DNA of 64,000 bases, from the NCBI RefSeq assembly GCF_024810105.1, contig NZ_JANUDX010000009.1, forward strand, positions 1 to 64,000. The letters run 5' to 3'. Position numbers and translations under genes: made by a program. The notes under the pieces were generated by a model, which did no database searches, was not told the origin of the DNA, and was given only the letters and a program-made list of their open reading frames with translations. Shown in pieces: positions 39,920-46,978 of the stretch (its first letter is position 1; every line of letters starts with the position of its first letter). Source of the DNA: Stenotrophomonas sp. BIGb0135 (GTDB lineage Bacteria; Pseudomonadota; Gammaproteobacteria; Xanthomonadales; Xanthomonadaceae).

Positions 39920-40029
39920 GTAGAGCCGACCGTTGGTCGGCTGCCCGTCCCCGACGGCGAATGTTGCGCAGCCGACCAATGGTCGGCGTCACCGGTAATG
40001 TTGCGCAGCCGACCAACGGTCGGCTCTAC
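39920..40029. repeat. Cluster of three SMAG palindromes
   Basis: A forward copy (GTAGAGCCGACCGTTGGTCG..., 39920-39942), a variant inverted copy (CAGCCGACCAATGGTCGGCG, 39969-39988) and an inverted copy ending CTAC (40006-40029). Outer forward and inverted copies can pair into a longer stem. The last copy contains the stop codon of the neighbouring gene. The rest of 39813-39919 shows nothing else. Confidence 0.85.
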
Positions 40030-40844
40030 CGGGGGGCGTGCGTGGCCAGCATCTGGCGGAACAGCGCGTCCAACGCCCCGCTGTCGCCACTGCCCGACGC
40101 GAGCGGCGGCGCGGCATGCTCCATCGCCGCCAGTTCGGCCTCGATGTACGCGCTGATCACCCCGTTCCGTGGGCCATCGGCAACCTCGGCGCTGGCCCGC
40201 TTGACCACCAGCAACTGGTCGATCGCCGCGCGCACCGGGCCGTGGGGCAGCAGGCGATCCAGCAGCAGCTCGAAGGCCATCGGCGGCGGATCGGGCTCGC
40301 ACTCGATCCAGCGGCAGGCCAGCAGCGGGCGAAGCACATACAGGTACTTCTTGGTGCGCACCCGCTCGCCGCGCAGATAGCCGCGGAAGTTGGTGCGGGC
40401 CATGTTGAGGTAATGCCACCAGCTGCCCAACGGCGAATGGAACTGCTGCACTGCATCCATCAGCGCGGCCACCGCCGCGTCGTCCTGCCGGTACACGATC
40501 GGCGAGCGCAGCCATTCGGACAGGGTCGGGTTGGATTTGGACACCAGCCGCAGTGCCTTGCGCAGGTCCCAGCCGCTCACGTCCAGTTCGTCGTCGATCG
40601 GCAATTCGATGACGTCCCGCTGCGCCTGGCCGGGCCCGGTGGCCTCGTTGACGCTGAGGTACCACGGTTGGCGATGCACGTAGATGAAGCGCGCATCGTA
40701 ATCGCTGTCGGGCGAGGAAAAGCCCCAGCCGCGACTGCCCGACTCGCAGGCCATCAGCACGCGCACGTCATGTACGCGTTCGATGCGCTCCAGTTCGACC
40801 ATGATGGCGGCGCGCTTGTCCGGCGCGATCGGGTGGATATCCAT
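40026..40844 (-). CDS. Nucleotidyltransferase domain protein (RlaP/YcgL-like)
   Basis: 272 residues. The polymerase-beta-type motif GSRGWGFSSPDSDYDARF carries the G-S and D-x-D catalytic pattern of the minimal nucleotidyltransferase fold. LSEWLRSPIVY and the C-terminal helical part agree with the RlaP (PF10127-type) family, which occurs both in RNA-repair contexts and alone. No RNA ligase is adjacent. The TAG stop lies inside a SMAG repeat. Confidence 0.85.
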   Translation of the reverse strand: MDIHPIAPDKRAAIMVELERIERVHDVRVLMACESGSRGWGFSSPDSDYDARFIYVHRQPWYLSVNEATGPGQAQRDVIELPIDDELDVSGWDLRKALRLVSKSNPTLSEWLRSPIVYRQDDAAVAALMDAVQQFHSPLGSWWHYLNMARTNFRGYLRGERVRTKKYLYVLRPLLACRWIECEPDPPPMAFELLLDRLLPHGPVRAAIDQLLVVKRASAEVADGPRNGVISAYIEAELAAMEHAAPPLASGSGDSGALDALFRQMLATHAPR

Positions 40845-43964: not shown

Positions 43965-44924
43965 ATGAGCGATTCACCCTTGCCCTGTGTCGACGACCTC
44001 CTGGCGGCCGCCGCACGTATCGCCCCGCATGCCAGCGTGACCCCGGTGCTGCAGTCGCACGTACTCGACGGGCTGGCGGGCGCTGCGCTGGCGTTCAAGG
44101 CCGAGCACCTGCAACGCGGCGGCGCGTTCAAGTTCCGGGGCGCGTGCAACGCCGTCTGGTCGCTGGACCCGGACCAGGCCGCGCGCGGGGTGGTCACCCA
44201 CTCCTCGGGCAACCATGGCGCCGCCCTGGCGCTGGCGGCACGCACCCGCGGCATTGCCTGCAACGTGGTGGTGCCCGAGGGCGCGGTGGCGGCCAAGCTG
44301 GCCAACATCGTCCGCCATGGCGCCACCATCTGGCGCTGTGCGCCCAGCATCCAGGCGCGTGAAGCGATGTGCGCGCAGGTCCAGGCGCAGACCGGCGCCG
44401 CCCTGGTGCATCCCTATGCCGACCCGCGGGTGATCGCCGGGCAGGGCACCGCGGCGCTGGAACTGTTGCACAGCCACGGCCCGCTGGACGTGCTGGTGGT
44501 GCCGGTGGGGGGAGGCGGGCTGGCCGCGGGAACCCGGCTGGCGCTGCAGGCGCTGGCACCGCAGGCGCGGCTGGTGCTGGCCGAGCCGGAGGGAGCCGCC
44601 GACACCGCACGCTCGCTGGCCGCTGGCGAACGTCGCATCGATTTCACCCCGGACACGGTCTGCGACGGCCTGCGCACCACCCTGGGCGCGCCCAATTTCA
44701 CGCTGCTGCTGGGCAAGGCCGAGGTGGTCACCGTGCCCGATGCCGCCACCGTGGCGGCGATGCGCCTGCTCTGGCAGGTGCTCAAGCAGGTGGTGGAACC
44801 GTCCTCGGCGATCGCCCTGGCGGCCATCCTGTCCGACCCGGCGCAGTTTGCCGGGCAACGGGTCGGGGTGGTGCTGTCCGGCGGCAACGTCGACCTGGAC
44901 GCACTGCCGTGGGCGCGCGCATGA
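43965..44924 (+). CDS. PLP-dependent serine/threonine dehydratase family protein
   Basis: A 319-residue fold-type II enzyme. The PLP lysine lies in GAFKFRGACNA, the substrate loop in THSSGNHGAALALAA and the phosphate-binding loop in VPVGGGGLAAG. Family members include threonine dehydratase, serine racemase and serine/threonine dehydratase; there is no ACT regulatory domain, so it is the catabolic or racemase type. It is coupled to ydcF by a 4-bp overlap. Confidence 0.88.
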   Translation: MSDSPLPCVDDLLAAAARIAPHASVTPVLQSHVLDGLAGAALAFKAEHLQRGGAFKFRGACNAVWSLDPDQAARGVVTHSSGNHGAALALAARTRGIACNVVVPEGAVAAKLANIVRHGATIWRCAPSIQAREAMCAQVQAQTGAALVHPYADPRVIAGQGTAALELLHSHGPLDVLVVPVGGGGLAAGTRLALQALAPQARLVLAEPEGAADTARSLAAGERRIDFTPDTVCDGLRTTLGAPNFTLLLGKAEVVTVPDAATVAAMRLLWQVLKQVVEPSSAIALAAILSDPAQFAGQRVGVVLSGGNVDLDALPWARA

Positions 44925-45520
44925 GCCGGCGCGCGCGGGTGGGCGTGCTGGGCTGGCTGTGGCGGCTGTGCATCGTGCTGGCGGCCTGGCTGCTGGGCGT
45001 GACCGCCTGGATCGTGTGGGTGGGTGAACGCGACCAGGCGGCCAAGGCCGACGCGATCATCGTGCTGGGCGCGGCCGCCTACGATGCCAAGCCGTCACCG
45101 GTGTTCGAAGAGCGCATCCGCCACGGGCTGGACCTGTACGAGCAGGGCTATGCGCCGCTGTTGATCTTCACCGGTGGCTACGGCGGCAGCGGTGCACGCT
45201 TTTCCGAATCGCAGGTGGCGCGCCGTTATGCGCTCAAGCAGGGCATCCCCGATGACGCGATCCTGATCGAGACCGCCTCGCGCACCACCCGCCAGAACCT
45301 GATCGAGGCACGGCGGCTGATGCAGCAGCGCGAGCTGCACCGGGTGATCATCGTCAGCGATCCGCTGCACATGGCGCGCGCGCTGCGGTTGGCGCGCGAG
45401 CTGGGCATCGACGCGTTGGCGTCCTCCACGCCGAGCACGCGCTTCCGCAGCTTCCACACCAGCTGGAAGTTCCTGGTGCAGGAAATCTATTTCTTCCACC
45501 GTGACCTGTTCCCGGCATAG
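44921..45520 (+). CDS. ydcF: YdcF-family (DUF218) protein
   Basis: 199 residues: one N-terminal membrane helix (about 10-32) and a DUF218 Rossmann-like domain with ADAIIVLGAAAYDAKPSPVF, LIFTGGYGG and IIVSDPLHMARAL. DUF218 proteins (SanA, YdcF, ElyC) act in envelope integrity and YdcF can bind S-adenosylmethionine. It starts inside the dehydratase stop codon (ATGA). The last 69 bases are duplicated at 45759-45827. Confidence 0.88.
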   Translation: MSRRARVGVLGWLWRLCIVLAAWLLGVTAWIVWVGERDQAAKADAIIVLGAAAYDAKPSPVFEERIRHGLDLYEQGYAPLLIFTGGYGGSGARFSESQVARRYALKQGIPDDAILIETASRTTRQNLIEARRLMQQRELHRVIIVSDPLHMARALRLARELGIDALASSTPSTRFRSFHTSWKFLVQEIYFFHRDLFPA

Positions 45521-45525
45521 GCCGC

Positions 45526-45709
45526 GTAGAGCCGACCGTTGGTCGGCTGGGCCACCGACCAGGCATACAGGTAGCCAGCCACGTAGAGCCGACCGTTGGT
45601 CGGCCGCACCGCCGGCCACGCGTACGGGTAGCCAGCCGCGTAGAGCCGACCGTTGGTCGGCTGGGCCACCGACCTGGCATACGGGTAGCCGACCAACGGT
45701 CGGCTCTAC
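45526..45709. repeat. SMAG tandem array 1 (57-bp units)
   Basis: Three direct copies of GTAGAGCCGACCGTTGGTCG... start at 45526, 45583 and 45640, exactly 57 bp apart. They share a spacer of the type CCACCGACC..GGCAT..GGGTAGCCAGCC. An inverted copy (45687-45709) closes the array. The array lies between ydcF and a copied bioC end. Confidence 0.92.
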
Positions 45710-45722
45710 GATCAGCGCCTTC

Positions 45723-45758
45723 GGCTCAGGGCGTTCTGCACCGGATCGGGATCGCCGA
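45723..45758 (-). pseudogene. Duplicated 3' fragment of bioC
   Basis: 36 bases equal to the real bioC end (46091-46126) except for two substitutions, including a copy of the TGA stop. It breaks off and joins directly to the ydcF copy. The true bioC gene is intact. Confidence 0.85.
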
Positions 45759-45827
45759 TTCCACACCAGCTGGACGTTCCTGGTGCAGGAAATCTATTTC
45801 TTCCATCGCAACCTGTTCCCGGCGTAG
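45759..45827 (+). pseudogene. Duplicated 3' fragment of ydcF
   Basis: 69 bases equal to the last 69 of ydcF (45452-45520) with five substitutions, ending at a TAG stop. It encodes FHTSWTFLVQEIYFFHR-type sequence with two residue changes, but has no start or upstream part. Confidence 0.9.
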
Positions 45828-45832
45828 CCCGC

Positions 45833-46075
45833 GTAGAGCCGACCGTTGGTCGGCTGGGGCCACCGACCTGGCATACGGGTAGCCAGCCACGTAGAGCCGA
45901 CCGTTGGTCGGCTGGGCCACCGACCTGGCATCCGGGTAGCCAGCCGCGTAGAGCCGACCGTTGGTCGGCTGGGGCCACCGACCTGGCATCCGGGTAGCCA
46001 GCCGCGTAGAGCCGACCGTTGGTCGGCTGGGCCACCGACCTGGCATCCGGGTAGCCGACCAACGGTCGGCTCTAC
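45833..46075. repeat. SMAG tandem array 2 (57/58-bp units)
   Basis: Four direct copies start at 45833, 45891, 45948 and 46006, with periods of 58, 57 and 58 bp, and an inverted copy lies at 46053-46075. It is the same unit as array 1, with one more repeat. It lies between the ydcF copy and the true bioC end. Confidence 0.92.
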
Positions 46076-46093
46076 GCGATGCGCGCTTTTGGC

Positions 46094-46978
46094 TCAGGGC
46101 GTCCTGCGCCGGATCGGGATCGCCGAGACCGGTACGCTGGCGACGTCGTGGCCGTGTTCGCGGATCGGTGCGCCCGCTTCGGGCGCCCAGGCGTGGGCAT
46201 AGATGACCTCCCAGCTGCTGGGCAGGCGGCCATCGTCGCGCCGCAGTGGCTCGTAGGCCGCGCGCGCAGCGGCGAAGCGGCCGCGCCCGGTCAGCGTATG
46301 GCGGCGGTCGTGGCGGGCGTTGGTGGCACCGATGGCCTGCAGTTCGCGCATCAGTGCGGTCAGGTCGTCGTAGGTGAGGGTGAACAGGTCGCGGTCCAGC
46401 ACCGGGTCGCGGAAGCCGGACATCATCAATGCATCGCCAAACTGGGCGATGGGCGCGAAGCGGCTGACATGCGGCACCGCGTCGGCCTGCGCGAAGGCCT
46501 CGCGCAGTTCGATCAGCGTATCCGGGCCGAACGTGGAGCACAGCAGCAGGCCGCCAGGCTTGAGCGCGCGCCGAAAACCGGCGAACACCGCCGGGAGGTC
46601 GTCCACCCACTGCAGGCACAGGTTGCTGTAGATCACATCCACGCTCTGGTCCAGCAGCGGCAGGGCCTGTGCATCGGCGCAGACACGCGAGAACGGCTTC
46701 CACCAGCCGGCCTGCTTCTTCGCTTCGCGCAGCATCGGCTCGGCCAGGTCGAGCGCGATCACCTGCGCCTTGGGCCAGCGCTTCTTCATCGCCGCACTGG
46801 CATGGCCGGTGCCGCTGCCGATGTCCAGCACCACCTGCGGCTGCCGGTCTTCCAGGTAGTCCAGCGATTCCAGCAGGCGCTTTTCCACCTCGCGCTGCAG
46901 CGCGGCGGCGGCATCGTAGCTGCTGGCGGCGCGCGAGAACGCGCGGCGGACGTGGCGGGGGTCGAAGCTGGACGTCAT
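46094..46978 (-). CDS. bioC: Malonyl-ACP O-methyltransferase BioC
   Basis: A 294-residue SAM-dependent methyltransferase that caps malonyl-ACP so fatty acid synthesis can build the pimelate moiety of biotin. The SAM motif VVLDIGSGTGHAS, the acidic motif VIALDLAE, the VIYSNLCLQWVDD motif IV and GGLLLCSTFGPDTL are visible. It is the last gene of the bio operon. The operon context and the BioC-type N-terminus (RRAFSRAASSYDAAAALQ) make the assignment firm. Confidence 0.95.
   Translation of the reverse strand: MTSSFDPRHVRRAFSRAASSYDAAAALQREVEKRLLESLDYLEDRQPQVVLDIGSGTGHASAAMKKRWPKAQVIALDLAEPMLREAKKQAGWWKPFSRVCADAQALPLLDQSVDVIYSNLCLQWVDDLPAVFAGFRRALKPGGLLLCSTFGPDTLIELREAFAQADAVPHVSRFAPIAQFGDALMMSGFRDPVLDRDLFTLTYDDLTALMRELQAIGATNARHDRRHTLTGRGRFAAARAAYEPLRRDDGRLPSSWEVIYAHAWAPEAGAPIREHGHDVASVPVSAIPIRRRTP

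Follow-up and report, generated by a model that had tools for sequence, protein, structure and literature searches.

The window, that is, the whole stretch of 64,000 nucleotides analyzed here from Stenotrophomonas sp. BIGb0135 (genome G000), contains the convergent genes ydcF and bioC, which are separated by two REP arrays with copies of the 3' ends of both genes between them. The name ydcF comes from an earlier note on this DNA; in a profile search, the product is a DUF218 protein (PF02698). The gene-end parents and copies listed below were delimited by repeat comparison.

44921-45520, plus strand: ydcF-like gene (DUF218 protein), within the ORF 44369-45520, with the ATG at 44921, uninterrupted to the stop; source of the 3'-end copy
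45452-45520, plus strand: parental ydcF 3' end, 69 nt
45526-45709: REP array 1, direct REPs starting at 45526, 45583 and 45640, and one inverted REP at 45688-45709
45723-45758, minus strand: copied bioC 3' end of 36 nt with 2 changes
45758-45759: duplication junction between the bioC and ydcF copies, GATCGCCGA joined to TTCCACACC, identical in genome G074
45759-45827, plus strand: copied ydcF 3' end, a detached remnant of 69 nt with 5 changes
45833-46075: REP array 2, direct REPs starting at 45833, 45891, 45948 and 46006, and one inverted REP at 46054-46075
46091-46126, minus strand: parental bioC 3' end, 36 nt, including 3 nt past the stop
46094-46978, minus strand: bioC (malonyl-ACP O-methyltransferase; TIGR02072 above the cut-off), uninterrupted to the stop

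The earlier note had described the same order of elements, with 69 nt and 5 changes for the ydcF end, 36 nt and 2 changes for the bioC end, and arrays of 3 + 1 and 4 + 1 REPs, and our recount agrees. Alignment of the direct repeats also reproduced the reported offsets, namely, 307 on the ydcF side (45446-45551 and 45753-45858; 106 nt, 92% identity) and 368 on the bioC side (45709-45758 and 46077-46126; 50 nt, 88% identity). The copies are not chance matches, with E values of 1.9e-21 for the ydcF end and 2.9e-10 for the bioC end in a self-BLAST search with the REPs masked. Apart from a REP pair at 39960-40032 (89%), no other direct repeats of at least 35 nt, within 700 nt and with more than 76% identity, were detected in the 64-kb window by the repeat finder used, which may overlook gapped repeats.

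A REP pattern search allowing up to 3 mismatches yielded 24 matches in the window, with some elements matched on both strands, compared to 0.08 expected. The units of the arrays are 57/58 bp long. In the earlier note, the repeats were called SMAG; this label does not hold because, in the available part of the source texts, the window repeat GTAGAGCCGACCGTTGGTCGGCT has the same sequence as class SM13 of the stenotrophomonad REPs (PMC3686654), and SMAG proper has the sequence GTAGTGCCGGCCGCTGGCCGGCA (PMC2613905). The window repeat has the makeup of a GTAG-type REP, with a GTAG foot followed by a perfect palindrome of 8-9 bp and a short loop. The REP tested is predicted to form a DNA hairpin with an 8-bp stem and a 3-nt loop (z -3.65), and the two closing pairs of direct and inverted REPs are predicted to form long hairpins (z -10.4 and -10.8). 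In G000, there are 656 SM13-class REPs at up to 2 mismatches (control, 1), and the gene for a RAYT (REP-associated tyrosine transposase) at G000:C1:516410-516730 has exact REPs of the window class on both sides (NF047646, 137.7 bits against a cut-off of 80; PF01797 also above the cut-off). The hallmarks of GTAG REPs, a high copy number and a cognate RAYT gene with the same REP on either side, are thus both found in this genome.

Of 91 genomes of the genus, one per species, that were searched for the ydcF 3' end, 88 contain it; both genes are present on the fetched stretch in 87 of these, and the stretch from G079 stops at a contig edge. Altogether, 49 ydcF-bioC loci were listed, of which ten distant ones (L078-L087) were excluded from the boundary comparison. 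The ydcF and bioC ends of each genome were searched in its own intergenic stretch (E 1e-3), and copies were found in four of the 87 genomes: G000, G074 (Stenotrophomonas sp. Ste86), G048 (D457) and G024. No gene-end copy was found in the remaining 83, among which G004 and G005 are too short to test (gap 13), and to which the near relatives G030, G059, G056, G072 and G049 belong. A 76% match to the bioC end in L064, ~1.7 kb past the boundary, was judged to be due to chance. Two contigs, titled Bacillus subtilis SK7B5 and Rickettsia endosymbiont of Bradysia coprophila (L039, L050), contain a Stenotrophomonas ydcF-bioC region and therefore look mislabelled or contaminated.

G000 carries a single additional copy of each of the ydcF and bioC ends, and G074 carries three of each along with a 28-nt piece of the ydcF end. 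Accordingly, the large units, which are arranged head to tail together with flanking DNA as in tandemly reiterated SMAG/REP loci, vary in number between the genomes, 2 in G000 (a draft, in which this number could be off) against 4 in G074. The junction between the bioC and ydcF copies is identical to the base in these two independent assemblies. In a tree of 25 of the 88 genomes, for which the duplicated ends of ydcF and bioC were left out, G000 groups with G074 as its sister (support 95/94), the two being separated by ~0.11 changes per site. The interpretation put forward in the earlier note, a tandem duplication of the ydcF/bioC boundary, is borne out by this comparison, and the single-copy junction that it proposed to search for is the form found in most of the genus. 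With 21 contigs, the assembly of the window genome is a draft, in which a repetitive stretch might be misassembled, but an assembly artefact, the other outcome that the note had named as fatal, is scarcely credible here, given that the copies differ from their parents at 5 of 69 and 2 of 36 bases, and that the junction was found again in the G074 assembly.

The other two genomes with copies have their own architecture. G048, the boundary of which is the same as that of S. maltophilia D457 (L071), contains two extra bioC ends, and G024 contains four; no copy of the ydcF end was detected in either, nor in any of the 85 of the 87 genomes besides G000 and G074. As judged by eye, D457 and G024 share a junction that differs from that in the window, with the bioC end joined to non-coding DNA. 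These loci (L034 in G048, as in D457, and L123 in G024) represent a second tandem amplification at the ydcF-bioC boundary, involving other REP classes. Given the lack of detectable gene-end copies in 83 of the 87 genomes and the existence of two different junctions, the ancestral form was most likely the single-copy boundary, which would have been duplicated on at least two separate occasions.

The structure in the window can probably be explained by a plain illegitimate tandem duplication of a unit consisting of the ydcF end, the REP array and the bioC end, followed by homologous exchange, with the duplication going back to the common ancestor with G074. The unit would have undergone a single head-to-tail duplication through an initial exchange that we infer to have been illegitimate (non-homologous), with breakpoints just inside both convergent genes. 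With the copies inside and the parents outside, neither gene would have been damaged, so that the duplication could persist; array growth can thus extend into flanking genes without harm to them. Subsequently, recombination or slippage between the copies and the REP units may have altered the counts, with 2 versus 4 large units and 3 versus 4 direct REPs, and the same, presumably unequal, exchange may have held the copies similar to the gene of their own genome. Indeed, the copies in G074 have the ydcF alleles of G074 (GAGATCTAC, GACATG), and the copy in the window has those of the window (GAAATCTAT, ACCTG), as unequal exchange predicts. The closer similarity of the copies to their own genome's gene than to each other could also suggest two independent duplications, one in G000 and one in G074, at a breakpoint hot spot. 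We consider this unlikely because the allele pattern is explained by concerted exchange, and because the base-identical junction occurs in sister genomes and the ydcF-end copy was not found in the other 85 of the 87 genomes.

Under the preferred scenario of a single ancestral duplication, the difference between the arrays would be a later change. The earlier note had proposed that one array gained a repeat, and this is compatible with the correspondence of the units (numbered u in array 1 and v in array 2): u1/v1, u2/v2 and u3/v4 occupy matching positions, and a single change separates v3 from v1. The direction is unproven, however, with u2 differing by 9-12 changes from every other unit; hence, the sequences are consistent with a gain of one REP unit in array 2, and a loss in array 1 is possible. 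There is no indication of a functional role of the copies, and the duplication event looks neutral.

As for the origin of the duplication, the junction joins two gene ends and lacks both microhomology and a REP foot; therefore, the initiating mechanism is not visible, and there is no sign of transposase action at this site. The mobility event suggested in the earlier note is accordingly unsupported at the window locus. The general association of tandem duplication with a REP neighborhood resembles that in enterobacteria, where REP elements were reportedly found at the join points of tandem chromosomal duplications (Shyamala and others, 1990). In those cases, the REPs themselves are said to be the recombining sites and the segments to be large; the breakpoints in the window are instead located within genes.

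Loci of this kind are known in print. Tandem reiteration of S. maltophilia SMAG repeats together with flanking DNA of varying length, variable between strains, was described in 2008 (PMC2613905), and similar reiteration with flanking DNA has been reported elsewhere (PMC3733652, PMC3116915). In the part of the text available, the SMAG loci of S. maltophilia consist of palindromic GTAG repeats in tandem with flanking tracts at fixed loci, and the number of units differs between strains (PMC2613905), all of which is similar to our observations. In contrast, two units given there are 50 and 103 bp long, and gene ends are not mentioned in that part of the text, whereas the unit in the window is ~307 bp long, spans both gene ends and contains SM13-class REPs. 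The ordered REPIN clusters of Pseudomonas fluorescens SBW25 have a unit of the form f1-REPIN-f2 but belong to other repeat families, and here, too, the available text does not mention gene ends (PMC3116915). Among the matches listed in a literature search, no title or opening of an abstract describes gene ends inside REP arrays. What the present case adds, then, is the gene-end content, the junction common to two species, and the second event. The window locus is a real, inherited and fairly ordinary case of REP-cluster growth, useful because the copied scraps of gene ends record the growth steps. Gene ends inside an array provide each large unit with a direction and a known parent, which makes it possible to polarise growth steps and to compare them across species, something that the REPs alone hardly allow.

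To place the window among other arrays of the same genome, we took a census of 44 fetched G000 array neighborhoods and the window (45 in total), of which the 44 with at least 3 REPs were counted, and L188 (2 REPs) was excluded. The sample was drawn from among the matches listed and is limited by the search pattern rather than being a full genome scan. In searches for widely spaced REP pairs, all G000 places were in stretches already fetched; L179 and L180 were missed, so that these searches were not exhaustive. Copies of the 3' end of a flanking gene (at least 18 nt) were identified in 8 of the 44 sampled SM13 arrays, among the matches listed: the window, L152, L156, L159, L166 (both genes), L173, L179 and L180. 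In the census, the left side of the window was assigned to a spurious antisense ORF, and the ydcF end rests on the repeat comparison instead. A ninth flagged array, L162, was dropped because the copied stretch stops 22 nt before the ATG and is upstream non-coding DNA, and L160 was not counted, the copied flank being non-coding only. In L162 (G000:C2:598500-601000), there are repeated units of ~280 bp, ~88% identical, which comprise a REP plus the region upstream of the following gene.

Gene-end junctions such as these provide material for asking whether arrays grow by slippage, by illegitimate exchange or by the action of a REP transposase. The RAYT of S. maltophilia cleaves between C and T beside REPs (PMC8266576, available part of the text), and a RAYT gene is present in G000 between REPs of the window class. 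Such an enzyme could have cut single-stranded DNA beside REPs and joined a site in a gene end either to the foot of a REP or to a second gene end, so that the duplicated unit would be an enzymatic product. In agreement with this scheme, the gene-end copy abuts a REP foot in six other arrays (L152, L159, the left side of L166, L173, L179 and L180), and CT occurs within the 8 bases spanning the parental breakpoint at all six foot junctions, against backgrounds of 0.27-0.40 (product ~0.001, in a test framed after the junctions were seen). Several junctions fit imperfectly, however. The joint seen in L166 is not the one expected from the nearest CT; L173 and L152 lack a CT cleavage site on the REP side; L180 fits only if two substitutions are allowed; and there is no REP foot at the junction in L156 or at the right-hand one in L166. 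The gene site is notably similar to the foot at just two of the six junctions (0.01 and 0.02; the others range from 0.12 to 1.0), and REP-foot similarity was rejected as a general rule. At the window itself, the junction does not read C then T as would be expected from such cleavage, and the two parents each have the CT site at the break on one strand only, on opposite strands. The transposase thus appears an improbable author of the window junction. With both the cleavage-site and foot rules failing there, plain illegitimate duplication is favored and, followed by homologous exchange, is the most likely course of events at the window; RAYT is an open lead for the other arrays. A broader reading, rather doubtful at present, would take the gene-end units to be footprints of in vivo RAYT cutting at cryptic CT sites, the window being a variant in which the original joint was lost. 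If this is true, arrays would grow in part through RAYT cutting in neighboring genes.

GTAG REP termini often supply the stop codon of the adjacent gene, so that the identity of stop codon and REP foot is already in print (PMC3733652, available part of the text). Among 67 predicted gene ends facing G000 arrays, 17 have the stop codon inside a REP foot (15 TAG, and 1 TGA and 1 TAA in mutated feet), in arrays L151, L152, L155-L157, L159, L161, L163, L164, L168, L175, L183, L187, L207 and L209, although a small number of the ORFs involved (L175, L187) may not be real. Only 2 of the 67 array-facing ends have a TAG stop outside such feet, and TAG terminates 2 of the 35 long ORFs in the window. L209 is a small REP group at window positions 39920-40029, of the same class as the ydcF-bioC arrays, where the flanking minus-strand ORF stops in the REP foot. 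In 10 of the 88 genomes (L010-L020 among the loci), the ydcF stop is a TAG directly before a hairpin, with a GTAG foot in nine, all from the clade of the window or the neighboring clade. The relatives of S. maltophilia have a longer ydcF C-terminus that ends in TGA. The C-terminal end of the YdcF protein may thus have been remodelled by the array.

Copied gene parts were also observed in REP arrays of other genomes. In G056 (L197), both gene ends are found in the array, one with an internal deletion. In G030 (L216; G030:C1:4568000-4570800), the start codon of a gene, which looks lipoprotein-like by eye, and the codons right after it recur three extra times in units of ~229 bp, showing that 5' ends are carried in REP arrays, too.
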